Assembly (NCBI GenBank): GCA_024642065.1
Contig: JAHEBW010000044.1
Location: 1-64,000, forward strand
Source of the DNA: Polynucleobacter sp.
GTDB lineage: Bacteria; Pseudomonadota; Gammaproteobacteria; Burkholderiales; Burkholderiaceae
DNA length: 64,000 bases
Direction: 5' to 3'
Under the pieces are notes generated by a model, which saw nothing but the letters and a program-made list of their open reading frames with translations, was not told where the DNA came from and ran no database searches. Positions within the stretch are counted from its first letter, which is position 1, and every line of letters begins with the position of its first letter. Positions 20,575-62,099 of the stretch are shown here, one piece after another. A program made the position numbers and the translations under genes.

Positions 20575-21861
20575 TTATCTTTCGGTCAATGATTCTTTAA
20601 GCGTCTTAGTAATAGGTTTTGTTAGGTAACTAAGAACAGTATTTTGGCCGGTGATAATTTCGGCTTTGGCTGTCATACCAGGTTGAATTTCAAGATTCTT
20701 TTTGGAGCTAGAGAAACCTTGCCCATCAGTTTGAATTTGCACTCGGTAATAGGTCTGTTCTGCACCTTTATTTTCTTCCGTGAGCGTATCAGGGCTAATA
20801 AAAGATACTTTGCCTTTAAGTGTGCCGTAAATTGAGTAGTCATATGCATCAATTTTAACAATTGCAAAAAGTCCCGGTTTGATAAAGGCAATATCGGCAG
20901 GTCTTACTTTTACCTCTACCATCAGCGTGTCTCCATCGGGGACTATTTGCATAACCTCTTCACCAGGTTTAATAACTCCACCTAGAGTAGTGATTTTCAC
21001 ATTCTTAACAGTACCCGCCATAGGGGATTTTAGTTCTATTCTATCTAGCTGCTCTCTTTTCTGGGTAAGTGTTTGCAAAATGCCTGCATAATCCTCTTCC
21101 GCCTTGCTTAGCTCAGCTTGAGCATCTTGGAAATATTTATTTTTCTTATTGGCTATTTGAGCGCTTATATCATTCACTTGTTTTTTAAGTCTAATAATTT
21201 CAACTTTAGAAACATCACCTGTTTTTAGAAGAGGTTCAGTCATCGCCAATTCTTGTTTGGCAAGCTCTTGCTGTGACTCAAGTGCCGATAATTCGTCGCT
21301 AATTGATTTTTTTCTTTTGATTAGAAGTGTTTTTTGGTTATGAATAAAGTCAGGATAATCATCCATGATTTTTTCAAATTTTAACGGTATTCCATAGACT
21401 TCATTTTTTAATCTTGCTACAGCCCCTGAAAGAGCAGCGGCTTTTGCTCTAGCCTCTAAATAGCTACTTTCCATCCTTGTTTTATCAAGTTTCGCCAACA
21501 CTTGATCTTTGACTACCTTATCACCTTCTTTAACCAAAAGTTGTTCAAGTACGCCACCATCAAAAGATTGAATAATTTGAGATCGCGAGCTTGGAATAAT
21601 TTGACCGGCAGCGCTTGTGCTTTGTTCAATTTTACTAAAAGCCGCCCATAAAAAGAGCGCAAGGAAAATTACCCCAAATAATCGAATCACATTAACTTTT
21701 TTATGAGGAAGATCATCTGATAGATTGGTCTCCTCAACATAAAATAGTTTTTCTTCAATGTACTGTCTTAGCTTTGAGTTTTTAAATTTCTCAATGCCAT
21801 GAAGAATTAATGGGACTACTTTTTCAATTGAATTTTTAATAATGAGCTTAACTTTATTCAC
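20575..21861 (-). CDS. HlyD-family type I secretion adaptor (LapC-like)
   Basis: The periplasmic adaptor joining the ABC transporter to TolC. The 428-residue protein has a cytoplasmic N-terminus of about 50 residues, one membrane helix (VIRLFGVIFLALFLWAAF), the lipoyl half IIPSSRSQIIQSFDGGVLEQ, a long coiled-coil hairpin (about 140-270), the second lipoyl half ELKSPMAGTVKNVKITTLGG and a beta-barrel domain with VKVRPADIAFIKPG. These are standard HlyD/LapC features. The start is GTG. It is the third gene of the operon TolC - ABC - HlyD, nine bases after the ABC gene. Confidence 0.92.
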   Translation of the reverse strand: MNKVKLIIKNSIEKVVPLILHGIEKFKNSKLRQYIEEKLFYVEETNLSDDLPHKKVNVIRLFGVIFLALFLWAAFSKIEQSTSAAGQIIPSSRSQIIQSFDGGVLEQLLVKEGDKVVKDQVLAKLDKTRMESSYLEARAKAAALSGAVARLKNEVYGIPLKFEKIMDDYPDFIHNQKTLLIKRKKSISDELSALESQQELAKQELAMTEPLLKTGDVSKVEIIRLKKQVNDISAQIANKKNKYFQDAQAELSKAEEDYAGILQTLTQKREQLDRIELKSPMAGTVKNVKITTLGGVIKPGEEVMQIVPDGDTLMVEVKVRPADIAFIKPGLFAIVKIDAYDYSIYGTLKGKVSFISPDTLTEENKGAEQTYYRVQIQTDGQGFSSSKKNLEIQPGMTAKAEIITGQNTVLSYLTKPITKTLKESLTER

Positions 21862-21870
21862 TTTTTACTC

Positions 21871-24015
21871 TTATTTAGATTGACTTAATTGTCTTTTTTG
21901 AGCTGCTTCTTTGAGGTTGTTTAATATCAAATCCTTCGGACCAAATTGAACTAGTTCGTTGTTTTCCATGATCATGACATGAGTTGCAAATCTTAGAACA
22001 GCGGGCTTATGGCTAACAATGACAATTAAAGTATCTTTTGTCATATTTTTAAAAATCTCATTTAAGACATGATTTTCCAAATCAGTATCAAGTGATGCCG
22101 TTGGTTCATCTAAAAGCAGAATGCTTGGTTTAGCCAGTAATAATCGTGTGAGTGCCACCATTTGACGTTGTCCACCGGATAGTCCCAAGCCGCCCTCTGA
22201 GATCGGTAAAGCCATGCCTTGAGGGTGCTTTGAAATTAAACGATCTAACCCGGTTTTTTTGCAGGCCGCAAGAATTTCTGAATCTGCTATGTAGGGCAAT
22301 CCCAAGGTTAGATTATCTTTGAGACTTCCTTTGATGAGGCGAACATCTTGAGGGAGGTAACCTATTTTTTCACGAATGAGCCCGGATGGTAATTGAGTCA
22401 TTTCAATATTTGAAAGGAGCACTTTTCCTTCCTGTGCTCGATATAAGCCGGATAAAATCTTTAATAAAGTTGACTTACCCGAGCCTACGCGCCCCATCAC
22501 AACAATAATATTGCCTGCAGAGAATTTAAGATGGTTGATGCTTAATTGCTTTTGATCTTTATCATAGCTGAATTTAATATTTTCTAGGCTCAAATGAGCT
22601 TCAAGATGGTCTGGGGTAATCGAATTTTCGTGATTATCGGTATCAGAGGGTAGGCTCATGATTCGATCCAAACTTAAAAGACTGTGCTTAATTTGTCCCC
22701 ATTGGACTAATAATTGCGGAATCTGCGCAAGTGGTCCAAGAATGCGCCCACTTAATATCGTGCAACCTATTAATCCACCAGTAGTTAATTGGTTTTGATG
22801 AATCATCCATGCGCCGACTGCAACAGTAAAGATATAGGCTAATTGCTGAACTGAACTGGCCATATTGGCGCTACTGATAACTGTTTCTTTGTGATGTAGC
22901 TCACGAATAGCCTGATCTCTCACAATACCTTGCCAGCTTTTTAATAATTGAGATTCCCCACCCACTGCTTTAATAGACTCAATCCCATCCATAGCTTCAA
23001 TGAGTAAACCATTTTTTCTATTTCCTTGCTCGACCAGCTGTTCGTTGGTCGATTTCAAGCTCAAGCTGTAACGGTAACCTAAAATGAGCATGATGCACAT
23101 AAATACTAAAGGTATTAAGCCTAGTATTCCGCCAATCGTCATCATGACAAAGGCAAAAAATATTGCAAAAGGGGCGTCAGCAAGTATGAATAAAGTTGCC
23201 GATGTCATGAAGCCTCGTATAGATTCAAATTGCCTCAACTCTGAAATAAAGGTGCCGACGTTTTTGGGCCGTGCATCTAGACGAATACTTAAAGCTTTAT
23301 TAAAGAAGATGGAGCTAAGTTCGCTGTCAACGTCTTTAAAGGTCTTATCAACTAACTTAGCCCTCAGTTGTTTCATGAGGTATTCCGAAGATATGGCAAT
23401 CAATGTTCCAATCGTCAAAACGATTAGGGTGGCATTACTTTGCGAAGGAATCACTCGATCATAAATTTGCATAGAGTACATAGCTGTACCTAGTGCTAAG
23501 GTATTCATGATGAAAGTTCCGATCACCGCGTCTTTGAGCTGAGGTCTTTTTTTATTAAAAAGATATTTAAACCAGTCAGATGCTGATTTTGGTTTGTGCT
23601 GGGTCAGGAACTCGTCACTTTCAGGTTCAACTGACAGGATCACTAATTTCGACTGCTCTAGCAGGTGGGATGTTAGTTCTATTTTGACTTGTGATCGATC
23701 CGCATTTTCAACAACTAAGTAATTGTTTTCCTGTATACCTCTGATTAATTGAATAGAACGATCATCATTGATCTTAAGAGCTACTTGTTCGGCGCTGATA
23801 TTCTGAATATCAGCCAAACTGGTGGCTAGTTTAGCCACTCCTTTGGGGTGAACCCTTAACCATAGTTCTTGAATACTTAGAATGGGGTTCTCGATATTTG
23901 TACTATCTTGAGTAAAGTTGTGACGAGGAATGTGTATCCCCAAGATATCAGATGCTCTTGCAAGGGCGTCATCTAGTGTCCAAGGATTATTTAATGCGTT
24001 CAGGTGTATTGACAT
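21871..24015 (-). CDS. Type I secretion ABC transporter with degenerate C39-like domain (LapB-like)
   Basis: The inner-membrane ATPase of a type I secretion system. The 714 residues comprise an N-terminal C39-like domain (about 1-135) without the peptidase cysteine, a six-helix membrane domain (about 160-460) and an ATPase domain. The Walker A motif is GRVGSGKST, the signature LSGGQRQM, and Walker B ILLLDEPTASLD. The inactive C39-like domain is typical of exporters for large C-terminal-signal substrates such as LapA or RTX proteins. Its likely substrate is the giant protein encoded divergently at 25653. Confidence 0.93.
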   Translation of the reverse strand: MSIHLNALNNPWTLDDALARASDILGIHIPRHNFTQDSTNIENPILSIQELWLRVHPKGVAKLATSLADIQNISAEQVALKINDDRSIQLIRGIQENNYLVVENADRSQVKIELTSHLLEQSKLVILSVEPESDEFLTQHKPKSASDWFKYLFNKKRPQLKDAVIGTFIMNTLALGTAMYSMQIYDRVIPSQSNATLIVLTIGTLIAISSEYLMKQLRAKLVDKTFKDVDSELSSIFFNKALSIRLDARPKNVGTFISELRQFESIRGFMTSATLFILADAPFAIFFAFVMMTIGGILGLIPLVFMCIMLILGYRYSLSLKSTNEQLVEQGNRKNGLLIEAMDGIESIKAVGGESQLLKSWQGIVRDQAIRELHHKETVISSANMASSVQQLAYIFTVAVGAWMIHQNQLTTGGLIGCTILSGRILGPLAQIPQLLVQWGQIKHSLLSLDRIMSLPSDTDNHENSITPDHLEAHLSLENIKFSYDKDQKQLSINHLKFSAGNIIVVMGRVGSGKSTLLKILSGLYRAQEGKVLLSNIEMTQLPSGLIREKIGYLPQDVRLIKGSLKDNLTLGLPYIADSEILAACKKTGLDRLISKHPQGMALPISEGGLGLSGGQRQMVALTRLLLAKPSILLLDEPTASLDTDLENHVLNEIFKNMTKDTLIVIVSHKPAVLRFATHVMIMENNELVQFGPKDLILNNLKEAAQKRQLSQSK

Positions 24016-24031
24016 GAGTTCTAATAATTAA

Positions 24032-25339
24032 CTACTTAAGTGTTTCTAAGTTTTCTTTGGTGAGGGTGCCAGTCATGATCCCAATATGGATTTGTGCTTG
24101 CATCAATGACATTTTGGTGTCTATCACGACGTTCATGCTTTGAGTCATTTCTTTCTGAGCATTAAGCACATCTAACCAAGTTTTTTTGCCAACAGTATAT
24201 TGTCTGGCAAAGCTATCAACGACAGATTGAGATGCCTCCAGTTGTTTTTCCATATAAACCATTTGCGTTAAGCCTAAATTGTATTGATACCAATACTTGG
24301 TGAGTGTGTTAACAAGCTCTTTTTCGGTGGAATCAATACTGGCTTCAGCACTTTTAGATTGGTTGATGGATGCGCTCCAGGCATAAGCGCTCGATACACC
24401 GGTGCCTAGCTGATACTCAAGTGCTATGAAAGTTTGCGATTCTGGATACGAGCCTGTAGGATTTTGGCGATTGTATTTTTCGTGTCGTAGGTAAACTTGA
24501 GGCAGTAGTGCACTTCTTTCAATGGCAGAGCGTGATTGTGCGGCGTCATACTTAAATCTAGCAGCTACCATTTCTGGGGAGAATCCTAAGCTTGTTTGGA
24601 TCGCTTCTTCTAGGGTCTTGAATGGAACTTTTTGGGTTAACTTAGGGTGTTGCAATGGCAAAATAGCTCTCACTTCGGTATTAATGAGGCGAGCTAGGGT
24701 CTGAAGAGCTGTTGATTCTTGTGACTTAATGGCCTCAAATTCTGCTAAAGCTTGTTGCAATCTCATGTCGGCTGTAACGACATCATTTTGAGAGCTAATT
24801 CCCGCCTCAGTTCTTCGTTGAATGAGGGCGTGCAGGCGTTTGTGCTCGCGAAGATTGCTTTCTGCCGTTTTGCGCCGTTCTTGTAGGCGGATGCACTCTA
24901 AATAACTATCCGCTACTTTGCCGATGATGTTTTGTTCTGTTGCGCTAAATTCAGCTTCAGCACTGTCTCGTTTTGCTTGCGCCTCTTTAATACCATGCCA
25001 GATGCGCCCACCTGTGAATAAGGGTTGTTGAATACGTGTTGTTGAAGTGCTATTACCATAAGTATCTTTGCCCGTGCTAAGACTTAAGCTAGGGCCTAGT
25101 TGCCATGCTGCTCCAACACTAGTTTGCTGAGCAGATTCAGCCTGAGATTTTTTTGAAATAATTTCAGGGTGGCTATCCATGGCTAGACCTATGGCATCTT
25201 TTAGCTCAATTGCCCTGCTGGGTGTGCTCGTAGACAACAAAATGCCAGAGAATGCCAACAAGAGTCCTGATGATGTCAACTTAGGCTTAAATTGCCTAAT
25301 TGATTGGCGTAAGGTTTTGTTAGATTGTCTAATTTGCAT
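24032..25339 (-). CDS. TolC-family outer membrane channel of the type I system
   Basis: A 435-residue outer-membrane efflux protein forming the exit duct. A signal peptide covers about residues 25-45 (LLLAFSGILLSTSTPSRA), and the mature part begins IELKDAIGLAMDSHPEI, a typical TolC/LapE start. Two repeated helical halves with QSTALQTLARL and YTVGKKTWLDVLNAQKE follow. The track opens at a TTG five codons upstream; the ATG at 25339 has GAAGG eight bases before it and is preferred. It is first in the secretion operon. Confidence 0.9.
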   Translation of the reverse strand: MQIRQSNKTLRQSIRQFKPKLTSSGLLLAFSGILLSTSTPSRAIELKDAIGLAMDSHPEIISKKSQAESAQQTSVGAAWQLGPSLSLSTGKDTYGNSTSTTRIQQPLFTGGRIWHGIKEAQAKRDSAEAEFSATEQNIIGKVADSYLECIRLQERRKTAESNLREHKRLHALIQRRTEAGISSQNDVVTADMRLQQALAEFEAIKSQESTALQTLARLINTEVRAILPLQHPKLTQKVPFKTLEEAIQTSLGFSPEMVAARFKYDAAQSRSAIERSALLPQVYLRHEKYNRQNPTGSYPESQTFIALEYQLGTGVSSAYAWSASINQSKSAEASIDSTEKELVNTLTKYWYQYNLGLTQMVYMEKQLEASQSVVDSFARQYTVGKKTWLDVLNAQKEMTQSMNVVIDTKMSLMQAQIHIGIMTGTLTKENLETLK

Positions 25340-25652
25340 TGCTGAAACCTTCAAAAATGAGCGGGTATTGTTTAAAAATGATTGTTTGAGGGGTGTTTAT
25401 GTTTGATATTTTTCTTCAATTAGTAGCCGAGTGATTGTAAATGGCTTTATTGCTCTAAAGCACTTTTAATTGACTTAAAAAATATTTGGACATTTTTTAA
25501 AAATATGCTCTAATCCTTCAAAGTCTTTTATACCTTTGGTAGAGTCTATTTCGGAAAATTTGTTTTTGGTATAAAAAAATCAAATAAAACAATGAGTTAT
25601 TAAAAATTAACTCAACTAACAAACGTACAACTATTTTTCTGGAGCCGTAAGA
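25340..25652. promoter_or_regulatory. Divergent intergenic region between the secretion operon and the giant surface protein
   Basis: About 300 A/T-rich bases hold the control region for both directions. For the giant gene, TGGTATAAA at 25567-25575 fits an extended -10 element with a poor -35. A 7-bp hairpin (TGAGTTA, eight-base loop, TAACTCA; 25593-25614) lies in the predicted leader. GGAG at 25641-25644 is the ribosome binding site, eight bases before the ATG. I could not pick a convincing promoter for the tolC direction. Confidence 0.5.
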
Positions 25653-28600
25653 ATGTCAACCCAAAAAACTGTTAAGGCAGTCAAAAAAACATCCGAACAA
25701 CTATCAGTTGAATCAGCTGCAATTGCCGCTGGTCTAGTTGTGGGTGCTCAAGCTGAAACTCAGGTAGCACTAAATCCAACTCAGAAGCTTGGTAAACAGT
25801 CAAACAAGCGTGAAGATGATGTTGCAGAGGTAGAAGTAGCTGCATCAGAAGTTGTTGAGGTTCAAGCGGTCGATGTGGACTCTACGGTGGTGATTGCAGG
25901 CTTGGTTGAAAGCGCTGACAGTGACATCAGTTTGGTGGCTAACGACAAGAATTGTCGTGTTAATAGCAAGGGTGAGGAAGAGTGTGAGGGTGGCGCTTAT
26001 TGGTGGCTAGGTCTTTTAGGTTTGGCTGGTCTTGCTGCTGGCGGTGGCGGTGGCGGTGGTGCAGCGCCTGAAACAGTTGCAAATTATCGTCACATTGATT
26101 TTGTGGGTTCTACTGATGTGTCTGCTGATACTCTTTTGTTAGACGCAGATAATGATGCTAGAACTGTAAATGTGGTTTATTCAGCTGATGAAAGTTATTC
26201 AGATGATTACCGTATTATTAGTGTTGACTCATCAGCTGACATCAAACATTTAAATATTTTGGCGACATCAAGTGATGATGTTTTATTGAGCTTAGATATA
26301 ACAAACGCGGAAGAGCTAGAAAGTTTGTCTATTGCTGCGGATGGTAGCTCAGAGATCCAGACGTCTTATGATTTGGTTAGCGTCGAAGCTAACGAACTTT
26401 CAATCGCAGTATCTGCAAGTAGCGAGTCTTTGGTTGGTTCTTGGTGGTGGCATATTGTTGATTTTTCAGGTGATTCTGTAAGTGTTGATGTATCCGCTAA
26501 TGATTCATCTGAGGTTATTACTTACTCAAGTATTGTAAGAAGTGCTTCTGCTGATAATGCAGATATAGCTATTTTGGCTTCAAATGATTCTAGTGTCCAA
26601 AATGGCTGGTGGGACGGTATCAATAATTGGTCTGGCGATTCAGACTTTGTGGCTATGTCCGGGGATGATATTTCTTTGACAGTAGCAGCCTATGACGGTA
26701 GTTTCATTGGTGCCTATTCGTATGATGGTTCTGACTTGGCTGAGATTGATGGTAATCGAGTGACTGCAAATGTAGTTGCATCAAACAGTTCAATGGAGGT
26801 GACTGATTCTGTTATTGATGTTACTGGCGACTCAATGGATGTTGCAGTACTTGCTTCTGGTGACTCATATATTGACTCTTGGTGGAATGTTGTTGAAGCT
26901 GATGGTCAGGATGCAGAAATTGGCGTTGTGGCTGATGGAAACTCATGGGATGGTTCTGCGGAAATCTGGGCAAGTAACGATATTGTTTACGGAGACGGTG
27001 ATAATGCTCAAGTATCCGTTGAAGCTAATGGAGATTACTGGTGGTGGGGTGCCGCAGAAATTAGCGCTGATGAACACGTGGTAGAGTGGTATGGTGAGAA
27101 TGCTGATATCTCAGTTGCAGCTACAACAGGTTATGCGTTTGTCGCATCATATTGGGATGCCATTTATCTCGAAGGTGATGCTGCTCATGTGGATATTGAG
27201 GCAGATGGTTGGTATACAGAGGTTGTTTCTGACAATGACGATGTTGCCGAAATATACTCAAATTCTGCAGAAGTTCATATTACAGCAAGTAACGGCGCTT
27301 TGATTGCAGGTGAGGATGAAGTATTGGTTCTTGAAGGTGATAATGCTCAAGTTTCTCTAAGTGTGGATGACTCTACTGTTAGAGCTAGCGATGATGATGT
27401 GATTGATATAGACGGCAGTTTGGCCAGTGTTGATATCTACAATAACAATGGTGATATCTTTGCAGATGATGACATTGTTGTTGTTGATTTTGGTGGTAGT
27501 TCAGACATTTCCTTGGTTGGCGTTAGTGGGGCATTATTCTCAGCAGACGACGACATTATTGAGGTCAATGGAGATGATGCGCATGTTGTTGTGGATTTAT
27601 CCGACAGCAATATGTGGGCAGATGAAGATATCATTGACGTGTATGGTGAAAATGCAAGCGTAGAGCTTTTGGCTTCTAGATCAACAATTGAAGCGTATAG
27701 TGAAGATGTTGTTGCGTTAAGTGATACTGGCGATGCTGGACATGTTGATGTAGCTCTTAGTGAAACATATGTAGCTGCTTACGATGGCGATTTGGTCAAT
27801 ATTTCAGGTGATCACGCTACAGTAGAATTATTTGCAACAAATGACTCTTATATTCAAGCCCAGGACATTATTTATGTTCGCGGCGGGGATAGCGCTAATT
27901 CAAATTCAGTGATTAGTGCAGACGTGATTATGTCTGAAGTAAGTGCAGATGATGATTTACTCGATGTTGAAAGAAATAATATTTCAATTGATGTCTTGAT
28001 TGGCGCTTCTCAAGTTAATGTTGATGGGTCGCTTCTAGAATCAGGAGTTTCACGACAATCTGATAATGTGGTTGCTGATATTGCAATCATTGACTCCTAT
28101 GTCCAAGCAAGCAATGATTTGATAAAAGTCAAAGGTGATGACTTAGATTTGAATTTATATATCGATCCATCACTAGTTGTTGCGCATGAGGATATGGTTG
28201 ATGTAGATGGTGACAGTGCAACAGTTGCTGTGTCAGTTAGTGGTGATGAAAACGAAGTTTATGTAATTGATGACTTTGCGCAAGTTGAAGGTGATTTTGC
28301 GAATGTTAATATTACATTTGATGGATCAAGTGATATTGAAGTTGGAACTTCTGAACTCTATGACCACTTCGGTACTGAGCATGGTAGCAACCTCATCCAA
28401 TTAACAGGCGACTCTGCAGATGTGAGTCTAAATCTTCACGATGGTGCAACTGTATCAGTTGAGAATCATGTGGCATTAATTGACGGTGATGATGTAACGT
28501 TGTCAATCAATGTAAGTGGTGATGCAGGCTTGGAGAATTTTAGCGGGGATGATGCAATATTATTCCATGGCTCAACTGCAGATATCAGTGTTAACGTTAC

Positions 28601-30776
28601 CGGTAACAATAGCTACATCAATACTGAATCAGACTTGATTCAGTTTGAATCAAGTTATGTAGGTGGTGAATCCACAGTCAATGTTAATGTTACGGATGGC
28701 GCATCCATTGACGCGGGTGATGATGTTCTTTATGCAGAAATCAGTTTTGATATTGATTCGATCGAGGATACGGTGAATGCAACATCTGCAAACTTCCATT
28801 TTGCAGTAAATGTTGATGGTTCAGGTAATATTGATGCAACTGATAACATTATTGACATTGAGTCAGAAAGTTATTCGTGGGATGCCTCTTTTAATTACCG
28901 CGACAACAGTTACAGTTATGACGATGTACTCACACTACCAGTGAATGTTGAAGTAGATTTCACAGCTTCAAGTGATGCTAGTGTAACTACAGGATATGGT
29001 TCAATTATTGACTTAATCGCAGGTGAAAGCGAAAACTGGGATGTGAATGTAAATATCTCAGGAAGCTCTGATGTGATAGCATATGACTATAGTGCTGATA
29101 CCAACTTAGTAGAGTTTAGAGCTGGCGGCAATGGCTCGTACGCAGGAACACATTCGATTGATGTTTCTATTACAGATGAAGCGTATGTTGCTACTGATGG
29201 TGGGTTAATCAACGTTTATAATATTGAAAACAGTTTTGTTCACTTAGCCGTAGATGACTCAGAAGTTTATACAGATGAAGCACCGTTCTGGATTGAATCT
29301 CATTGGGCTTCAAGTTCAGTATTTAGTGTAGACATAATAGATTACGGTACTAACTACTGGTGGTCATCAGGTGATGTAGATGCATACTTCTATCTTGATG
29401 GCGAAGATAATACTTTTGATCTATCAATGCAGACAACTTCAATGGATGATATTTGGGTCTCAATGGACGCCTATTCTTCTGATTTTGGAACATCCACAGT
29501 TTCAGTGGATATGAATGATGTCTATTTGAGTGGTGACTTATCCATTGATGTTAATAACGATTCGAGTTCAGCAGACGCTCACGTCGAAGTAGCTTTACTA
29601 GATACATACATAGAGAATGATGTAAATGTATGGGTTTATGAAGGCTTCAGTGCTGACATTGGTGTTGAACTAGTTTCATCAACTATTGATGATGATTTAA
29701 TTGTCTATGCATCACCTTGGGATAATGATAGTTACATGGCATTATCGATGGATGATAGCTACATTGATGGCGTAGAATTGTATTTTGATGATGTAGATGA
29801 GAACGAAGCTATTTCTGTTGATATGTGGAGTTCAAGCACATTCTCTACTGAGATCTCAGTTGATGGCTGGTGGAATTATTCAGATATTGAATTAAATCTA
29901 TACGATTCTTCCATAGATCAGTTGGATGTTATGGTATTTGAAGGTGAAGATGGTAGTACTGATATCAACTTAAATTTCCAGGATTACAGCTCTGTTGATA
30001 GTTTAGAAATCTATTTAGATGGAGAATCTGATAATGAAGTGCTTTGGGCAGATGTAACTTTAACAGCCGATGATTCAACTGTCTGGGATACAGTAGTTGA
30101 TACTTATTACACACATATGAACCTAGCAATTTCATCAGATAATTATGGTTCTGGTGAAGATGCTTGGGGACAGAATGGAAGCGGAGTTGATTTATACGCT
30201 GAACATTCAATTGTATCAATTGATAGTATTGGTAATGAGGATGCGTATTTAGAAGTTGAGGCAGATTACAGCTCTGTTTATCTAGATTCAAATGCATTTG
30301 AATATATTGATATTAATAATTCATACAACAGCACTGTATACAATCTAGAAGATTATGTGGATGGTGATAAGTGGTATGTTTATGGTTCATATGCTACAGC
30401 TCAATTGGCTTCAGACCCTACGCCGGGTGATGGACCTGACATTTTGGATGGTGGTGATACAGATTATTTCTCATATTCTTTATCATCAATTGAGGGCAGT
30501 GGTTCAACGCTATATCTTTATGTGTCAAGCTCAGTTGTTGACAATTTGGATTTTGCAGACTACGGCGATGGATATGAAACAATTATCGATGATATTTTAG
30601 ATACATATGCTGATTTATATTTGGTAGTTGATGATGGTACAAATATTTCAATTCATCACGCAGTCGATCACTGGACATATGACTCGACACCAAATATTAC
30701 ATTTGCAAATGCGTCTTCGTATGTTGATAGTTATACAGATGTATATGGCTATTTAACAAATAGCACGGTAATTTAA
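25653..30776 (+). CDS. Giant acidic repeat protein, predicted type I-secreted beta-solenoid surface protein
   Basis: A 1707-residue protein with no Sec signal peptide. Residues 1-110 are a mixed region with the only dense Lys/Arg. A Trp-Gly hydrophobic stretch and a seven-glycine run follow (YWWLGLLGLAGLAAGG, about 116-131). From about residue 150 to the end it is Asp/Ser/Val-rich with very few Lys. The middle is built from units of about 26 residues following VxVxxxxSxVxADDDIIxVxGDxAx, such as SADDDIIEVNGDDAH, which I read as turns of a beta-solenoid with Asp-rich corners. WW pairs recur. No RTX nonapeptide was seen. A type I secretion operon is divergent from it and a GT41 glycosyltransferase lies downstream. 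No family was recognised; an adhesin or S-layer-like role is inferred. Confidence 0.8.
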   Translation: MSTQKTVKAVKKTSEQLSVESAAIAAGLVVGAQAETQVALNPTQKLGKQSNKREDDVAEVEVAASEVVEVQAVDVDSTVVIAGLVESADSDISLVANDKNCRVNSKGEEECEGGAYWWLGLLGLAGLAAGGGGGGGAAPETVANYRHIDFVGSTDVSADTLLLDADNDARTVNVVYSADESYSDDYRIISVDSSADIKHLNILATSSDDVLLSLDITNAEELESLSIAADGSSEIQTSYDLVSVEANELSIAVSASSESLVGSWWWHIVDFSGDSVSVDVSANDSSEVITYSSIVRSASADNADIAILASNDSSVQNGWWDGINNWSGDSDFVAMSGDDISLTVAAYDGSFIGAYSYDGSDLAEIDGNRVTANVVASNSSMEVTDSVIDVTGDSMDVAVLASGDSYIDSWWNVVEADGQDAEIGVVADGNSWDGSAEIWASNDIVYGDGDNAQVSVEANGDYWWWGAAEISADEHVVEWYGENADISVAATTGYAFVASYWDAIYLEGDAAHVDIEADGWYTEVVSDNDDVAEIYSNSAEVHITASNGALIAGEDEVLVLEGDNAQVSLSVDDSTVRASDDDVIDIDGSLASVDIYNNNGDIFADDDIVVVDFGGSSDISLVGVSGALFSADDDIIEVNGDDAHVVVDLSDSNMWADEDIIDVYGENASVELLASRSTIEAYSEDVVALSDTGDAGHVDVALSETYVAAYDGDLVNISGDHATVELFATNDSYIQAQDIIYVRGGDSANSNSVISADVIMSEVSADDDLLDVERNNISIDVLIGASQVNVDGSLLESGVSRQSDNVVADIAIIDSYVQASNDLIKVKGDDLDLNLYIDPSLVVAHEDMVDVDGDSATVAVSVSGDENEVYVIDDFAQVEGDFANVNITFDGSSDIEVGTSELYDHFGTEHGSNLIQLTGDSADVSLNLHDGATVSVENHVALIDGDDVTLSINVSGDAGLENFSGDDAILFHGSTADISVNVTGNNSYINTESDLIQFESSYVGGESTVNVNVTDGASIDAGDDVLYAEISFDIDSIEDTVNATSANFHFAVNVDGSGNIDATDNIIDIESESYSWDASFNYRDNSYSYDDVLTLPVNVEVDFTASSDASVTTGYGSIIDLIAGESENWDVNVNISGSSDVIAYDYSADTNLVEFRAGGNGSYAGTHSIDVSITDEAYVATDGGLINVYNIENSFVHLAVDDSEVYTDEAPFWIESHWASSSVFSVDIIDYGTNYWWSSGDVDAYFYLDGEDNTFDLSMQTTSMDDIWVSMDAYSSDFGTSTVSVDMNDVYLSGDLSIDVNNDSSSADAHVEVALLDTYIENDVNVWVYEGFSADIGVELVSSTIDDDLIVYASPWDNDSYMALSMDDSYIDGVELYFDDVDENEAISVDMWSSSTFSTEISVDGWWNYSDIELNLYDSSIDQLDVMVFEGEDGSTDINLNFQDYSSVDSLEIYLDGESDNEVLWADVTLTADDSTVWDTVVDTYYTHMNLAISSDNYGSGEDAWGQNGSGVDLYAEHSIVSIDSIGNEDAYLEVEADYSSVYLDSNAFEYIDINNSYNSTVYNLEDYVDGDKWYVYGSYATAQLASDPTPGDGPDILDGGDTDYFSYSLSSIEGSGSTLYLYVSSSVVDNLDFADYGDGYETIIDDILDTYADLYLVVDDGTNISIHHAVDHWTYDSTPNITFANASSYVDSYTDVYGYLTNSTVI

Positions 30777-30795: not shown

Positions 30796-30821
30796 AATGA
30801 GGGCTTCGGCCCTCATTTTTT
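30796..30821 (+). terminator. Strong Rho-independent terminator after the giant surface protein
   Basis: AATGAGGGC, loop TTCG, GCCCTCATT, then TTTT. A nine-bp stem capped by the very stable UUCG loop and followed by a T-run begins 19 bases after the stop codon. The glycosyltransferase ORF starts only 24 bases later, so expression of the next operon would need read-through or a promoter overlapping this element. Confidence 0.93.
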
Positions 30822-30845: not shown

Positions 30846-32558
30846 ATGAAACAAAGTAATAAGCTTGTGCATAATAAATTGGGTTTGCAGGAGTTAAAAA
30901 AACTCATCAGAAATGATCCAAAAAATGCAATTCAAAAATTGGAAAAAATTTATTCAATAAATAAAAATAATTATCAGTTTTTAATGGTGATGGTTGACCA
31001 ATATTCTCTGCACGGACAAAATAAACGTGCAAGAGAAATTGCGCTTGAGTTGATTAAGCTCGCAAATAATGAAAAGCAGAAATTAAACCTAGTGCGAACA
31101 CTAACAAGACTGGGCTTAATAAAAGAAGCAAATAAAATGATGGAAGAAGGTGCAGTTGGTCAGATTCAATTGCAAGATGCAAGTAAAATTCTTTTTACAG
31201 CAACACAAGTTTGTGATTGGGAAAAAATTAGACAATCAACAGAAGTGCTATTAGATCATTATAAAAGTGAAAAATGGAACTCGGCAGTTGAAACACCCAG
31301 AACACACTTACTTTGGTGCTCTGATGAAAAAATAAATAATAAAGTTTTCCAACTATTTGCGGGGAGCCAGCACGGTAAAAGCAATAAAAATATCATCGAA
31401 AAGATAAAGCCCCTAAGTGGTAGAAAAATTAAATTAGGGTATATGTCTAGTGATTTTAGAAATCATCCAACTGCACAATTAATTAAGGGGCTATTAGCAG
31501 CACATAACAAAGAAGAATTTGAATTAATTGCTTATGACACTGGATATGATGATAAATCAGAAATGCGCAAAGAAACCTTGCAGTTATTTGATAGGGTCGA
31601 GCTTCTATATGAAAAAAATGATGCTGAAGCTGAAGAGTTCTTAAGAAATGAAAATTTAGATGTCATTATTGAATTGAATGGATTAACACAAGGTGCTAGG
31701 TTGGGGATTTTAAAGAATCATCCGGTGCCAATACAAATTGATTACTTAGGTTTCCCAGGATCTGTTGGTGGTGGTGGAATTGATTACATTATCGCTGATA
31801 GCTATGTTCTGCCAGCAGGGGTTGATAAATATTATTCTGAAAAAATCATAAGAATTGAAAAAACATATCAAGCGAATAATCACATGAATGAAAAGCAATT
31901 GGAGCCTTTATCAAGGCAACAATTGGGGTTTAGTAGCGATGCATTTATTATGGGTATGTTTAATAATTGCAATAAGATATCCGGACCAACATGGAAGACA
32001 TGGGTTCAAATATTAAAGAGAGTACCTAGATCTGTATTGTGGATGTTGGTGCCGAATGATGTTGCACAGGTAAACTTAAAAAATAGTCTTAAAGAAGAGG
32101 GGGTAGACCCTAGGAGACTAATCTTTGCACCAAGAAAAGATAGGCTCGAGCATTTCCAACGAATGAGTGTATGTGATGTTATGTTAGATCCTTGGCCGTA
32201 TGGTGGACATACAACAACATCCGATGCGCTATATTCAGGTGTGCCAGTGATTGCGCTTGAAGGTAAAAATTTCGCATCACGGGTAAGCGGCGGTTTACTA
32301 ACTGCAGCGGGATTACCGGGATTGGTTGTGAAATCAATCGAAGATTATATTAATGGAGTAGTTAGATTATCTAATGATGACCAACTTCTAAATCAAATTA
32401 AGCAATATTTAATTAGAACAAAAAGCACATCATCAATTTTCAATAACACAGTAAAGGCAAGGCAAATTGAGCAAGCCATTAAAATTATCATAAATAATAG
32501 AATCAAGGGATTACCGGATAAAAGTATCAATATGTCATATAAGGCAAATAAATCATGA
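30846..32558 (+). CDS. GT41 glycosyltransferase (SPINDLY/O-GlcNAc transferase-like)
   Basis: A 570-residue cytoplasmic protein. Residues 1-165 look like degenerate TPR helices. The C-terminal GT41 catalytic part follows, with GYMSSDFRNHPTAQLIKG, DYLGFPGSVGGGGIDYIIAD, the nucleotide-sugar block LDPWPYGGHTTTSDALYSG and PVIALEGKNFASRVSGGLL. Family members attach sugars to Ser/Thr or Asn of proteins in the cytosol. Being directly downstream of a giant, Ser- and Asn-rich protein that waits for type I export, it is a good candidate to glycosylate it; that is inference from position. The stop overlaps the next start (ATGA). Confidence 0.85.
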   Translation: MKQSNKLVHNKLGLQELKKLIRNDPKNAIQKLEKIYSINKNNYQFLMVMVDQYSLHGQNKRAREIALELIKLANNEKQKLNLVRTLTRLGLIKEANKMMEEGAVGQIQLQDASKILFTATQVCDWEKIRQSTEVLLDHYKSEKWNSAVETPRTHLLWCSDEKINNKVFQLFAGSQHGKSNKNIIEKIKPLSGRKIKLGYMSSDFRNHPTAQLIKGLLAAHNKEEFELIAYDTGYDDKSEMRKETLQLFDRVELLYEKNDAEAEEFLRNENLDVIIELNGLTQGARLGILKNHPVPIQIDYLGFPGSVGGGGIDYIIADSYVLPAGVDKYYSEKIIRIEKTYQANNHMNEKQLEPLSRQQLGFSSDAFIMGMFNNCNKISGPTWKTWVQILKRVPRSVLWMLVPNDVAQVNLKNSLKEEGVDPRRLIFAPRKDRLEHFQRMSVCDVMLDPWPYGGHTTTSDALYSGVPVIALEGKNFASRVSGGLLTAAGLPGLVVKSIEDYINGVVRLSNDDQLLNQIKQYLIRTKSTSSIFNNTVKARQIEQAIKIIINNRIKGLPDKSINMSYKANKS

Positions 32559-33637
32559 AAATTGCATTACTAAGTGCCTTGCCTGCCGGTTTAAATACCG
32601 GCATGTTAACTGTTGAATATGCATTCAAATCGATTCAGAATGAAAAAAATTGGATAGTTAACCGGTATTGTCTTGAGCGTGACTTTTCATTTGAGCATCA
32701 GTATTTGGGTGAGATTAATGCTACAAAAATTGAGAATTCAGACCTACTAGAAGAATATGATCGAATCATCTATTGGGGTGATTTTCTGCATTGGCGGGGA
32801 TATTTGCATAAAGATCTATACTTGCGACATCAAAAATTAAATTCAGAGGAATCATTTGATAAAACAATAGAGCGATATTACGATATATTTTTCTTGGAAA
32901 AAAAGAAAAAATTATTGAAAAAATCGATTGCATTTGGCGGAACAATATACCCATTAAGTACAAGTGATCTAAAAGATGAGCGATACAGAAATAATCTACA
33001 GAATTTATTAACAAATGCAAGAAGTGTAAAGTTTAGAGATGTCTACTCTTCTGAGTTGGCAAGAGGAATAATAAATTCTGAGAAGAGTTTTATGGGTGTT
33101 GACCCAGCCTTTTTGTTAGATACCAAATCAATAAATACCCATCAACATAAAAATAAATATTTAGTATTTTCATTTGGCAGATCTGGTCACAATGAATTTC
33201 TTGCAAAAATTGCTATTATGATATCCAAAAAATTAGGTTTAGATGCTTATGATTTGCAATGGTTTGCATTACAAAATGGACAAAACCCATTAATTAAAAA
33301 ATTAGAAGTATTGAAGGGTGCAAGTTTGGTAATTACAGACATATATCATATGTCTATCAATGCATTTAGAGAGGGTAAGCTGACTTATATGTTTGGTAAT
33401 GGAGCTAGCTATGCAATGAGTAGTTTAAGTGATAAGAAAAAAGAAATTTTATTTAAGCAGTATCTTGTGGAGCCGCAATATTTATATACTGAATTAGTTA
33501 AGAATGAAAAATATCTAAATAGTGTAATTGACTCAATCGCTCAAAGATTGAACGAGAACACTGGCTTTCAAAACGAATATCTGGAGCAGCAAATTTCATA
33601 TGCTAGGACTATGCTCATAAAGAATATTGAGAAGTAA
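32555..33637 (+). CDS. Polysaccharide pyruvyltransferase-like protein
   Basis: A 360-residue protein that resembles the polysaccharide pyruvyltransferase (CsaB/WcaK) fold. The N-terminal SALPAGLNTGMLTVEYAF fits the early N-x-G phosphate-binding loop, ARSVKFRDVYSSELARG resembles the RDxxS block, and ASLVITDIYHMSINAFREG fits the conserved late T-D/R-x-H motif. These enzymes add a ketal-linked pyruvate to sugars, giving an acidic decoration. The match is remote, so substrate and activity are uncertain. It overlaps the GT41 gene by four bases and precedes the sulfotransferase by three, indicating one operon. Confidence 0.6.
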   Translation: MKIALLSALPAGLNTGMLTVEYAFKSIQNEKNWIVNRYCLERDFSFEHQYLGEINATKIENSDLLEEYDRIIYWGDFLHWRGYLHKDLYLRHQKLNSEESFDKTIERYYDIFFLEKKKKLLKKSIAFGGTIYPLSTSDLKDERYRNNLQNLLTNARSVKFRDVYSSELARGIINSEKSFMGVDPAFLLDTKSINTHQHKNKYLVFSFGRSGHNEFLAKIAIMISKKLGLDAYDLQWFALQNGQNPLIKKLEVLKGASLVITDIYHMSINAFREGKLTYMFGNGASYAMSSLSDKKKEILFKQYLVEPQYLYTELVKNEKYLNSVIDSIAQRLNENTGFQNEYLEQQISYARTMLIKNIEK

Positions 33638-33640
33638 ATA

Positions 33641-34801
33641 ATGAGAACGACTCTTGAAAAATCTTTAATAAGTCATAAAACCCCTTTAATATTCATGCAC
33701 ATCCCCAAGACAGGAGGGATGTCAATGTTTACAGCTTTTGCAGAATTTTGGGGAGAGTCAATTGCAGATATGTATAACATATCACCCAATATGGAGTCCA
33801 AAGCAATAGATCTGTTTTTGGATCATAAAAAAATTGCATATTGTGGACACTATGCTTTTGGAATAAACCATTGGTTTGATAGGCCAGTCTATTATGCATC
33901 TGTGATGAGAGAGCCTACAAGCAGAATGGCTTCCCTATATAATTTTTGTTTACCTGTTCTGCAAAGTGCTCAAAAAATAATTTCTCAAAAAAATGTAAAT
34001 TTTAGTTCACTTAAGATCCCAAATTTTCATTATGATTTTGCGAATTGGGTTGAAAAAGATTCAACGCCTGAGGGATTTTTCAATTCAACAAGCGCAGAGT
34101 TAGATAATGGAATGGTGAGGAGATTTAGTGGGTATGGAATAAATCCCCAAAAATGTACTAAAGAAGCACTAACACAAGCGAAGAAGAATATAGAAAAAAA
34201 TTTTGCGGTAGTGGGAGTTTTGGAAAGGTATGAAGAGACGTTAGAGCTTTTCTCAAATAAATTTAATTTACCAGCAATTAGTCACAATAAAGTCAATATA
34301 ACAAAGAAAATTCAATTGCCAAAGAGTGAATTTTCTAAAGAATTGTTGAGTAAAATAGAAAGACAGAATGAGCTCGATATCGAGCTATATCAATGGGTCG
34401 ATGCTAAACTTAATACGTGGATCGATGTCGCGCAATCAAAAAAGCCACCTATAGTAGCGCCCAATAAAAAACTAATGATTAGTTCTCCGCCACTATGGAA
34501 GGCAGTAGGTCAGTCCCCCCTTCGTGAGGCGGCAATGAAAAATAAAGGAGTAAAAGTAATGAATGAAAAAAAAGATGAAGTAAAAGCCAAAAAAGTGATT
34601 ATTTGTAAAAAAATCAAGCAAGTAGGGTACAACGATAAAGGTCTGTTATTGGGTTTGAATGTTGTAATCGCAAGAGCAAATCAAAAACTTCCTGAAGAGT
34701 CAGTTTCCATGGGGATGAGCTTAGCTAATGCTCGATTACTCTATAAAGCCTTAGGTGCAGCATTGCAAAAGCAGAAAGAAGCGACAGCTAAATCGGCATA
34801 A
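33641..34801 (+). CDS. Sulfotransferase-family protein with an extra C-terminal segment
   Basis: A 386-residue protein. Residues about 15-265 match PAPS-dependent sulfotransferases: the 5'-phosphosulfate loop FMHIPKTGGMSMF near residue 20 and the 3'-phosphate-binding block REPTSRMASLYNF near 90. It would sulfate a sugar or protein. The C-terminal 120 residues are not part of the domain. Their last 80 begin with an in-frame ATG (34559) preceded by AAAGGAG, so this part may also be made as a separate small protein. It is last in the operon with the GT41 and pyruvyltransferase-like genes and overlaps the convergent gene by 14 bases. Confidence 0.8.
   Translation: MRTTLEKSLISHKTPLIFMHIPKTGGMSMFTAFAEFWGESIADMYNISPNMESKAIDLFLDHKKIAYCGHYAFGINHWFDRPVYYASVMREPTSRMASLYNFCLPVLQSAQKIISQKNVNFSSLKIPNFHYDFANWVEKDSTPEGFFNSTSAELDNGMVRRFSGYGINPQKCTKEALTQAKKNIEKNFAVVGVLERYEETLELFSNKFNLPAISHNKVNITKKIQLPKSEFSKELLSKIERQNELDIELYQWVDAKLNTWIDVAQSKKPPIVAPNKKLMISSPPLWKAVGQSPLREAAMKNKGVKVMNEKKDEVKAKKVIICKKIKQVGYNDKGLLLGLNVVIARANQKLPEESVSMGMSLANARLLYKALGAALQKQKEATAKSA
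34559..34801 (+). CDS. Possible internal 80-residue protein within the sulfotransferase ORF
   Basis: An in-frame ATG at 34559 is preceded by AAAGGAG with eight-base spacing, a better translation signal than that of the full-length gene. It would give an 80-residue basic protein starting MNEKKDEVKAKKVIICKKI and containing ANQKLPEESVSMGMSLANAR. The sequence is well structured rather than linker-like. Either a small gene was fused to the sulfotransferase and kept its old start site, or both products are made. No function is recognised. Confidence 0.45.
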   Translation: MNEKKDEVKAKKVIICKKIKQVGYNDKGLLLGLNVVIARANQKLPEESVSMGMSLANARLLYKALGAALQKQKEATAKSA

Positions 34802-58554: not shown

Positions 58555-60441
58555 TCAGTAATTTAATGCTTGGATGACTCGTTTCGCACATTCTGTGACA
58601 GTATATTTTTCTGTGTCAAGTATGATGTCCGGGTTAATAGGTGCTTCATAGGATGAGTCTATGCCTGTAAAGTTTTTTATCAATCCCGCCCTCGCTTTTT
58701 TGTATAAGCCTTTGGGGTCACGCATTTCAGCGGTGCTTAAGGGTGTGTTGACATAAATCTCAAGAAACTCATTGGTGCTAAAAAGTGATCTTGCAAATTC
58801 ACGATCTTTTTGAAATGGCGATATCAGGGTGACTAAAACTATTAAGCCTGCATCAGCCATCAGCCTAGCAACTTCGGCCACTCGACGAATATTTTCAATC
58901 CGATCTGATTCTGTAAATCCTAAGTCTTTATTAAGTCCATGTCGGACATTATCACCATCAAGAATGTAGCAATGTTTTCCAAGTGAAAAAAGTTTCTCTT
59001 CGACTAAGTTTGCAATAGTACTTTTGCCTGATCCCGATAGTCCAGTAAACCACAACACTTTAGGTGTTTGATTCTTTATCTGTGAGCGCTCTTTTGAGGT
59101 TATTTTGAAATATTGAGGAACTATGTTTTGGGAGCGTCTGAGGGCGAAATCGATGACACCTGCACCAACGGTATTATTGGTAAGTTTATCAATCAAAATA
59201 AAACTACCAAGTGTGGAGTTATCTAGATAAGGTTCAAATACTAAATTTTGATCAGTATGAAGGTTGCATACAGATATTGAGTTTAATCCTAAGTAAGTAG
59301 CTGCAATATGCTCTAGGGTATTAACGTTGATGATGTATTTAATTTTTGTGATGGATGTGTTGACTGTTTTTGAACCACATTTAAGTAGGTATTGTCTTCC
59401 GGGGTGAAGTTCTTCTTCTGACATCCAGATGATTTTGGCTTCAAATTGGTCAGCAAGGATAGCTGGGTCATTTTTGGCGCAAATGACGTCACCGCGTGAA
59501 ATATCAATTTCCTCATCGAGTGTGATGGTGATGGCTTGGTTTTGTTGTGCACTTTTCAGTGGGCCATCTTTGGTAATAATCTCTTTAATTCGGGTGATTT
59601 TCCCTGAAGGCAATACCTGAATTTCATCGCCACATTGAATGCTTCCCGATGAAATGGTTCCTGCATATCCTCTGAAATTTGAATCCGGTCTGTTAACCCA
59701 CTGAACTGGCAATCTAAAGGACTGTTTGGAGACTTTTTTGCTGGGTGACACATTCTCTAAATGCTCAAGAAGTGTAGGGCCTTTGTGCCATGTCATATGG
59801 ATACTTCGCCTGGTAATATTGTCTCCGTTCAGAGCTGAGAGGGGTATAGGAGTGATATTTAGAAGCTTAATTTTTTTGGCAAATTGAACATACTCATGAG
59901 TCAATAAGTCGAATTGCTTTTGGGAGTAATCAACTAAATCCATTTTGTTGATAGCAAGAATAACTTCTTGAACGCCCATTAGTGAGGCTAAAAAACTATG
60001 CCGCTTGGTTTGAGTTAAAACCCCTTTGGTGGCATCTATCAGAACTATGGCTAGGTCAGCGGTTGATGCTCCGGTAATCATGTTTCTGGTGTATTGCTCA
60101 TGTCCAGGTGTATCAGCAACAATAAATTTTCTTTGGTCGGTGGAGAAGAATCGATAGGCAACATCAATCGTAATTCCTTGCTCCCTTTCGGCAGCCAATC
60201 CATCAACTAATAATGCAAAGTCAATCTTGTCTCCTTGCGTCCCCATTTTTTTTGAGTCAATTTCTAATGATTTCATCTGATCTTCAAAAATCATTTTTGA
60301 TTCGTATAAAAGGCGACCTATTAACGTACTTTTTCCGTCATCGACACTTCCGCATGTGATAAATCTCAATAGAGTTTTATTTTGTTGTGTTTTCAAGTAC
60401 CGGTGAAGGTCTTGACTTGTTTGATGATGGTTGATGTGCAT
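58555..60441 (-). CDS. cysNC: Bifunctional sulfate adenylyltransferase subunit 1 / APS kinase
   Basis: A 628-residue fusion making activated sulfate. The GTPase part (about 20-440) has GSVDDGKSTLIGRLL, DTPGHEQYTRNM and NKMDLVD. The APS kinase part (about 455-628) has GLSGSGKSTIAN at 467, DGDNVRHGLNKDLGF and a phosphorylation-site region VTLISPFQKDREFAR. With CysD it forms APS, which the kinase turns into PAPS. Many betaproteobacteria reduce APS directly, so a kinase suggests a need for PAPS itself, such as for the sulfotransferase at 33641. It follows cysD with a TAATG overlap. Confidence 0.94.
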   Translation of the reverse strand: MHINHHQTSQDLHRYLKTQQNKTLLRFITCGSVDDGKSTLIGRLLYESKMIFEDQMKSLEIDSKKMGTQGDKIDFALLVDGLAAEREQGITIDVAYRFFSTDQRKFIVADTPGHEQYTRNMITGASTADLAIVLIDATKGVLTQTKRHSFLASLMGVQEVILAINKMDLVDYSQKQFDLLTHEYVQFAKKIKLLNITPIPLSALNGDNITRRSIHMTWHKGPTLLEHLENVSPSKKVSKQSFRLPVQWVNRPDSNFRGYAGTISSGSIQCGDEIQVLPSGKITRIKEIITKDGPLKSAQQNQAITITLDEEIDISRGDVICAKNDPAILADQFEAKIIWMSEEELHPGRQYLLKCGSKTVNTSITKIKYIINVNTLEHIAATYLGLNSISVCNLHTDQNLVFEPYLDNSTLGSFILIDKLTNNTVGAGVIDFALRRSQNIVPQYFKITSKERSQIKNQTPKVLWFTGLSGSGKSTIANLVEEKLFSLGKHCYILDGDNVRHGLNKDLGFTESDRIENIRRVAEVARLMADAGLIVLVTLISPFQKDREFARSLFSTNEFLEIYVNTPLSTAEMRDPKGLYKKARAGLIKNFTGIDSSYEAPINPDIILDTEKYTVTECAKRVIQALNY

Positions 60442-62000
60442 TAGAAATAACCTTCTTGCTTTTTCTTTTCCATAGAGGCATTGCTGTCATGGTCAATCAT
60501 GCGCCCCTGTCGTTCAGAGGTCTTGGATAGAAGCATTTCTTGAATGATTTCTGGCAATGTTGCTGCGTCAGAATCAATAGCGCCCGTTAATGGATAGCAA
60601 CCAAGCGTTCTAAATCGGACTCTTTTAATTTGAGGTATTTCCCCAGGATTTAGTGGTGTTCGATCATCATCCACCATGATCCAGGTATCATTTCTATAGA
60701 CTACTGGACGTTCTTTTGCGAAATACAGGGGGACAATTGGTATATTTTCTAAAAAGATATATTGCCAAATGTCCAGTTCTGTCCAGTTTGATAAAGGGAA
60801 TACTCTAATGGTCTCTCCATTATTCTTTCGGGTGTTATATAAATTCCAAAGCTCAGGCCTTTGATTTTTTGGATCCCAGCGATGCTGATCATTTCTAAAA
60901 GAAAAAATACGTTCTTTGGCGCGTGATTTTTCTTCATCACGGCGTGCGCCACCAAAAGCCACATCGAATTTATATCGATCGAGTGCTTGTTTTAGAGCTT
61001 CTGTTTTCATGATATCGGTATGAATTTGTGAGCCGTGCACAAATGGATTGATATCCTTATCGATGCCATCAGGATTTGTGTAGACAATTAATTCAAATCC
61101 ATACTCTTTAGCCATTTGATCTCTAAAGCGGTACATATCTTGAAATTTCCAACGCGTGTCTACGTGAAGAAGTGGAAATGGTAGCTTCGCAGGGTAAAAC
61201 GCTTTCATTGCTAAGTGCAACATCACGGCGCTGTCTTTGCCAATGGAGTAAAGCATGACAGGGTTGTTCGCCTCAGCGATTACTTCACGCATGATGTGGA
61301 TGCTTTCTGCTTCAAGCATCTCCAGGTGTGTTAGTTGATTAGAATTTTTGATGAGAGTATGGTTGGTAGGCTTTGAAATTGGTAGATGTGCGCCCTTTTT
61401 TTTGAGGGGCGTGGTGTGAATTTTAATTTTTCTCTGTAAGAGAGTTAGTTCTTGGCAATATTTTAAATCAGCAATATCTGTATGTATTTCATTAATCTGA
61501 TCATCCATACCCATTAATTTTTCACACATAAGCGTGTAATTGGTATCAACGGGTGGCTGATCATGAAAGCTCCACAAGTGCACCTTTTTAATCCGCGCGT
61601 GCAGTATGTGAAGACCTCTTATTTTGTCCTGTAGGGATTCAATTTGGCCTGAATTGTTGAGGCGAGTATTTTTTTTATGCCATTCAACCTTTTGAAGTAA
61701 TGAGAGAAATGATCGATGATTGATATTTTTGTTGTGATGTAATTCAAGAAATGTTTGCAACTCTGTTGCAGTAAAAATTTTTTCAGAATTAATTAATGCT
61801 TGTATACAGCTGGCGTCAAGCCAGAGAGATTCGAGTCTTGGTCGACCAGCATTAACTTTGGTTTCAATATTAGTCGAATAGTTCTTGTAGGCTGCAATAA
61901 TGGTTGGGCGACTCAAGCCCGTGACTTTGGCAATTTCAGATAGACTATTCCCGGCTAATTTCATCTGCAGGGCTTTTTGTTTAGCATTTATTTTGCTCAT
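60441..62000 (-). CDS. cysD: Sulfate adenylyltransferase subunit 2 (CysD) with N-terminal double-HTH extension
   Basis: Residues about 222-519 are a complete CysD of normal length: [18 protein letters not shown], the PP-loop [34 protein letters not shown] and a C-terminal QGRMIDHD. CysD joins ATP and sulfate to APS. Residues 1-221 are extra: an HTH ([19 protein letters not shown]) followed by GRPRLESLW and a second wHTH-like block ([14 protein letters not shown]), a layout like IS630-type DNA-binding domains. A Gln/Lys-rich helical linker follows. No Shine-Dalgarno and start pair was found at the junction, so the fusion appears real. It heads the cysD-cysNC operon. Confidence 0.88.
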
Positions 62001-62099
62001 GCTTAATTAAACATTATATTTTTTACTAGGTAAAGTTTTTAATTGTTAATTCTCATCGGGTGGTAATATCACGGACTACTTTTGATATTCACTATCTAT

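Follow-up and report, generated by a model that had tools for sequence, protein, structure and literature searches.

The window analysed here is the whole stretch of 64,000 nucleotides at the start of contig JAHEBW010000044.1 of Polynucleobacter sp., a freshwater-type bacterium. It carries genes for a type I secretion system (T1SS), a giant acidic protein, three putative modification enzymes directly behind the giant, and a set for the synthesis and recycling of PAPS. The features are as follows.

20575..21861, minus strand: HlyD-family T1SS adaptor (TIGR01843, 3.5e-97, above cut-off)
21871..24015, minus strand: T1SS permease/ATPase of the LssB type (TIGR03375, 4e-188, 627 bits against a cut-off of 693)
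24032..25354, minus strand: TolC-family outer-membrane channel (OEP, 5.6e-44; TIGR01844, 5.3e-54)
25653..30776, plus strand: giant acidic protein of 1707 aa, presumed T1SS substrate, predicted beta-solenoid with ~26 aa per turn
30796..30817, plus strand: terminator hairpin with a 9-bp stem, TTCG loop and T tail (z -2.87)
30846..32558, plus strand: GT41 (OGT-like) glycosyltransferase of 570 aa with a short N-terminal TPR-like region (PF13844, 1.9e-71)
32555..33637, plus strand: polysaccharide pyruvyl transferase-family protein of 360 aa, divergent subgroup (PF04230, about 8e-10)
33641..34801, plus strand: Sulfotransfer_2 sulfotransferase of 386 aa, carbohydrate-type and PAPS-dependent by family (PF03567, 4.4e-5; PF06990, 0.0035)
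58555..60441, minus strand: CysNC, a fusion of sulfate adenylyltransferase subunit 1 and APS kinase for PAPS synthesis (NF004035, 6.7e-303; APS_kinase, 1.2e-66)
60441..62000, minus strand: CysD with a 215-aa N-terminal HTH-like extension (NF009214, 6.5e-167, aa 216-519)
62082..62870, plus strand: TauE/SafE-family permease (PF01925, 2.4e-44)
62874..63671, plus strand: CysQ, the PAP phosphatase that recycles the product of sulfotransfer (TIGR01331, 1.8e-70, above cut-off)

The ORFs of the GT41 enzyme and the pyruvyltransferase overlap by 4 bp, and 3 bp separate the latter from the sulfotransferase. The ORFs and Pfam matches thus confirmed the positions and spacing given by the initial annotation, which had described the three genes as a decoration operon behind a giant surface protein. 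The term operon holds for the three enzymes, but the giant is set apart from them by an intrinsic terminator and would be linked to them via read-through. The hairpin starts 20 bp past the stop codon of the giant, and the ATG of the GT41 gene lies 28 bp past the hairpin. As this leaves little room for a promoter, it suggested that GT41 is expressed by read-through from the transcript of the giant, which would yield less enzyme than substrate. Between 20 and 50 kb, the window showed no genes for a lipid carrier, a flippase or a polymerase.

The HlyD, LssB-type ABC and TolC genes (20575-25354, minus strand) are divergent from the giant, which is presumed to be their substrate from its position beside them alone. 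The protein has a pI of 4.05, with 14.2% Asp, 13.1% Ser, 5.1% Tyr and very little Lys or Arg, and its sequence shows a periodicity of 26/54/78. AlphaFold2 without an alignment modelled aa 501-1200, with fair confidence, as a solenoid of nearly all strand (pLDDT 80, pTM 0.73). Foldseek searches with the model gave weak beta-helix matches alone, such as pertactin. No Pfam domain was found in the giant, and its single NCBIfam match, in the N-terminal part, is below cut-off; neither a recognised T1SS C-terminal signal nor RTX repeats were found with Pfam and NCBIfam, and its N- and C-termini have no relatives on the plasmids searched. It had been proposed that the giant contains many N-x-S/T sequons and Ser-rich stretches. 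The sequons show a modest excess over the 18.7 that composition predicts, with 27 in the giant, a number reached by 2% of shuffles. SS pairs, 30 in all, are about as frequent as expected (28.9).

The GT41 protein matches Glyco_transf_41 above the curated Pfam cut-off (1.9e-71). It aligns with OGT across both halves of the catalytic region, with 'NHP', the K of 'NCNKIS' and 'GHTT' conserved, and its nearest solved structures are OGTs (3.5e-58), compared with 2.3e-38 for SPINDLY and 1e-8 for NGT. At the N-terminus, a single sub-threshold TPR_19 match covers aa 22-75. An identity as an HMW1C-like NGT was considered and rejected, since NF049992 reached 38 bits against a cut-off of 1000 and OGTs score far above NGTs. 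This is the only GT41 gene in the genome. GT41 genes are common in the genus, but these are less than 40% identical to the window enzyme and are located elsewhere, in many cases close to a porin. Many of them (loci L036-L075) occupy a shared TatC-porin-GT41-mscL-petA site. A GT41 tree placed the window enzyme apart from the copies of the genus, next to a GT41 of a Burkholderia plasmid, with low support (0.45) and a long branch (1.7) for the window enzyme. To our knowledge, the characterised GT41 enzymes are protein glycosyltransferases.

The second enzyme scored 39.5 bits with PS_pyruv_trans (Pfam cut-off 25.3) and keeps the R and H columns of the family in the alignment, which places it in the family. 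Its closest relative, at 30% identity, is found within an exopolysaccharide cluster of Agrobacterium, about 5 kb from T1SS genes, and the two proteins have 'SLSDKKKEILF' in common. Neither 150 related genomes nor 399 genomes of the phylum yielded further relatives at E<=0.001. A structure model made without an alignment was unusable (pLDDT 33).

The sulfotransferase has a weak Sulfotransfer_2 match, just above the Pfam cut-off (24.2 bits against 22), and an even weaker one to the Gal-3-O-sulfotransferase family PF06990. Its only PDB match was heparan sulfate 6-O-sulfotransferase (0.0017). The PAPS-binding motifs, 5'-PSB 'HIPKTGGMSM' and a 3'-PB-like 'VMREPTSRMASLY', are largely common to three homologs. 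Among 150 genomes there was one weakly matching relative, in another family and without a T1SS, and within its own genome the protein matched only itself. Single-protein scans of viral contigs returned no relatives of the pyruvyl- or sulfotransferase. Taken together, the motifs present in the GT41 enzyme, the pyruvyltransferase and the sulfotransferase suggest that all three are probably active.

A complete PAPS cycle (CysD, CysNC and CysQ) lies within the window, apart from the assimilatory cluster of the genome. The latter is on another contig; its CysN lacks the kinase, and its CysH has cysteine motifs that we assign to APS reductases. This set suggests that sulfate assimilation should not need PAPS in this bacterium. 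The kinase in CysNC is the only APS kinase of the genome, and Sulfotransfer_3 is absent from it. Across the 101 related genomes compared, a strong APS kinase occurred in 14 of the 15 genomes with Sulfotransfer_3 and in 19 overall (Fisher 3e-12, not corrected for the kinship of the genomes); of the five APS-kinase genomes that remain, two carry Sulfotransfer_2, namely the present genome and G098. From the sole APS kinase, the lack of Sulfotransfer_3, the single sulfotransferase match and this co-occurrence, the PAPS set most likely serves the window sulfotransferase, although divergent sulfotransferases of other families may have escaped detection. The proposed sulfation is therefore supported indirectly, by a PAPS cycle in the window of a genome with no other recognised sulfotransferase; that its acceptor is a glycan rather than tyrosine or LPS, we infer.

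Similar associations were found in other bacteria. In three related genomes (G034, G025 and G038; loci L270, L273 and L274), the APS kinases adjoin Sulfotransfer_3 proteins, two of which are 1725-1764 aa long with TPRs and two sulfotransferase domains, and ESPR-bearing giant type V proteins are also nearby in G034 and G038. A proteobacterial MAG encodes flagellin, GT41, CysQ, CysD and CysNC one after another in the same direction (L155:7898-15004). These parallels suggest a possible wider theme of sulfated surface proteins. The CysD with an N-terminal HTH-like region occurs in two genomes of the genus (window:60441-62000 and L271:6656-8425). Next to the PAPS genes (window:54689-58544) are a Big_5-repeat protein and then a Big_5-clostripain (C11) peptidase.

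The pairing of GT41 with a giant T1SS protein is a recurrent arrangement of a minority of GT41 loci; T1SS genes are lacking at most of them. The collection was scanned with a three-sequence GT41 alignment, as a nine-sequence alignment gave no usable conserved stretch. On plasmids of P. asturiensis and Pseudomonas sp. DTU and on a P. viridiflava contig, a giant with ALTTAQ repeats (found by Pfam in the former two and read from the sequence in the last) is followed directly by GT41, and TolC-HlyD-ABC genes are nearby. In all three Pseudomonas loci, a similar hairpin, read from the sequence, follows the giant, and GT41 starts so soon after it that little room is left for a promoter there too. A Cereibacter plasmid carries ALTTAQ and Calx-beta proteins, GT41 and HlyD near each other, and a Chlorobiaceae contig has a TolC-ABC-HlyD-GT41 run. 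Two candidate neighbours were dropped: L169 turned out to encode an RND pump of the AcrAB type, and L158 an M50-peptidase/HlyD fusion. The Pseudomonas loci thus resemble the window in their giant T1SS protein, terminator hairpin and GT41 immediately behind, but they encode another repeat protein, no pyruvyl- or sulfotransferase, and transporter genes that are distant from those of the window (HlyD 22-23% identity). We found no published account of them in the open-access literature. The suggestion that GT41 glycosylates the giant in the cytosol before type I export gained support from these three loci and that of Cereibacter.

On the other hand, the four genes together were found in no other genome searched, and this test of co-occurrence did not support pyruvylation or sulfation of the giant. 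Weak profiles detected no relatives of the pyruvyl- or sulfotransferase at 79 GT41 loci of public genomes, at 40 from the genus or at those on plasmids. Among the genus genomes searched there was no close relative of the T1SS ATPase, the pyruvyltransferase or the sulfotransferase, and the closest ATPase elsewhere, from another family of the order, is 42% identical. The G+C content is ~0.38-0.45 left of 20 kb and ~0.33-0.37 across 30-46 kb. This gene distribution and the shift in G+C fit a locus that was probably acquired as an island.

We propose that the island was gained by horizontal transfer and that it combines the acidic giant, a surface protein folded as a beta-solenoid, with a T1SS of its own and an operon of three modifying enzymes. 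In the cytosol, GT41 would add a sugar to Ser/Thr of the giant before it folds. The pyruvyltransferase and sulfotransferase would then place pyruvate and PAPS-derived sulfate on the short glycan, and the T1SS would export the modified giant afterwards. CysD-CysNC would make the PAPS and CysQ would clear PAP, all three being encoded 24-29 kb away in the window. Leakage through the terminator of the giant would read GT41 and the downstream genes and keep the enzymes scarce relative to their substrate. We give this reading, with the giant as acceptor and one glycan for all three enzymes, an even chance of being correct. The decoration idea has partial support and is plausible. Its best-supported step is the glycosylation of the giant through GT41; sulfation comes next with its indirect evidence, and pyruvylation comes last. 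The more general claim is tentative and falls somewhat short of an even chance: that a T1SS-exported giant bears a pyruvylated and sulfated glycan which GT41 initiates and whose assembly needs no lipid carrier, and that GT41-T1SS pairs with read-through form a recurrent, undescribed system of cytosolic glycosylation and export, to which sulfation is an add-on.

The pyruvyl- and sulfotransferase, and perhaps GT41, might instead decorate the LPS O-antigen or an exopolysaccharide, with their place beside the giant a by-product of island assembly. The Agrobacterium setting of the nearest pyruvyltransferase fits this, as does an O-antigen-type locus of rmlBDAC (dTDP-rhamnose) and acyltransferase genes that starts ~6 kb past CysQ on this contig; in a related genome, the CysD-CysNC-TauE set also stands among polysaccharide genes, and that genome has no relative of the window sulfotransferase. 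However, the GT41 enzymes characterised so far, such as HMW1C, are known to act on proteins, and at least 35 kb separate the tightly packed trio from the rml genes, with no carrier-lipid genes near. We regard decoration of LPS or exopolysaccharide as unlikely, though LPS sulfation is a serious rival.

The giant could also be modified in two other ways. In Xanthomonas, the RaxABC T1SS works with the sulfotransferase RaxST and PAPS synthesis by RaxPQ, and by the same logic the window sulfotransferase could sulfate tyrosines of the giant directly before export, with GT41 glycosylating it independently. The acidic, Tyr-containing giant would suit such an enzyme, but the Sulfotransfer_2 assignment, the Gal-3-O-sulfotransferase match and the nearest structure all point to a carbohydrate-type enzyme and make direct tyrosine sulfation improbable. 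The recurrence of GT41-giant pairs without the other two genes would also agree with GT41 alone modifying the giant, the other two being passengers with unrelated small-molecule or glycolipid acceptors. Against this, the 4-bp overlap and 3-bp gap suggest co-translation and the genome keeps a PAPS cycle, so we consider a role of GT41 alone more improbable still.

Both halves of the proposed system, glycosylation of an exported adhesin by GT41 and sulfation before type I export, have precedents, and the locus is best filed as a variant in which the two are combined. In Haemophilus, the gene of HMW1C, a member of the GT41 family, adjoins that of a large exported adhesin, on which HMW1C acts in the cytosol before export (PMC3983070). 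The HMW1/HMW1B/HMW1C system differs from the window in its type V export and Asn linkage; the window has a T1SS, an OGT-like enzyme and the additional pyruvyl- and sulfotransferase. In Xanthomonas, RaxX/RaxST/RaxABC and RaxPQ unite a T1SS, PAPS synthesis and a sulfotransferase for an exported polypeptide (PMC4216712). The window likewise has PAPS-synthesis genes besides a T1SS, but RaxX is a small peptide with a tyrosine acceptor, whereas the window sulfotransferase belongs to a carbohydrate-type family and is accompanied by GT41 and a pyruvyltransferase. As for the novelty claimed at first for the export of a sulfated glycoprotein by a T1SS, sulfation coupled to a T1SS and GT41-modified exported adhesins are thus known, and what would be new is their combination on a T1SS giant, which was not found in the open-access literature searched. 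Synechococcus SwmA and SwmB are likewise large surface proteins, SwmA is a glycoprotein, and transporter and glycosyltransferase genes are nearby. Neither protein is known to be sulfated or pyruvylated.

If the proposed reading is correct, GT41 glycosylation of exported adhesins would extend from type V to type I secretion, an exported protein would gain acidic end-groups known mainly from polysaccharides, and bacteria would have a second route, after RaxX, to present sulfated proteins extracellularly. Because GT41 and T1SS genes are also paired in Pseudomonas, the general claim can be tested in strains that are tractable.

The region beside the trio has features of its own. Genes for an AMP-ligase, a TctC/TctA-type transporter, a porin-like protein and a cyanophycin-synthetase-like ATP-grasp protein (window:34788-44650) form a possible small-molecule cluster. 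Behind them, a PatB-like aminotransferase/C-S lyase, so named from reading its sequence, is split into two ORFs and is probably a broken gene (window:44822-45997), and two overlapping ORFs with 'SGITTSSTYNATV' repeats (window:46221-47848) are probably a single repeat-protein gene with a frameshift.
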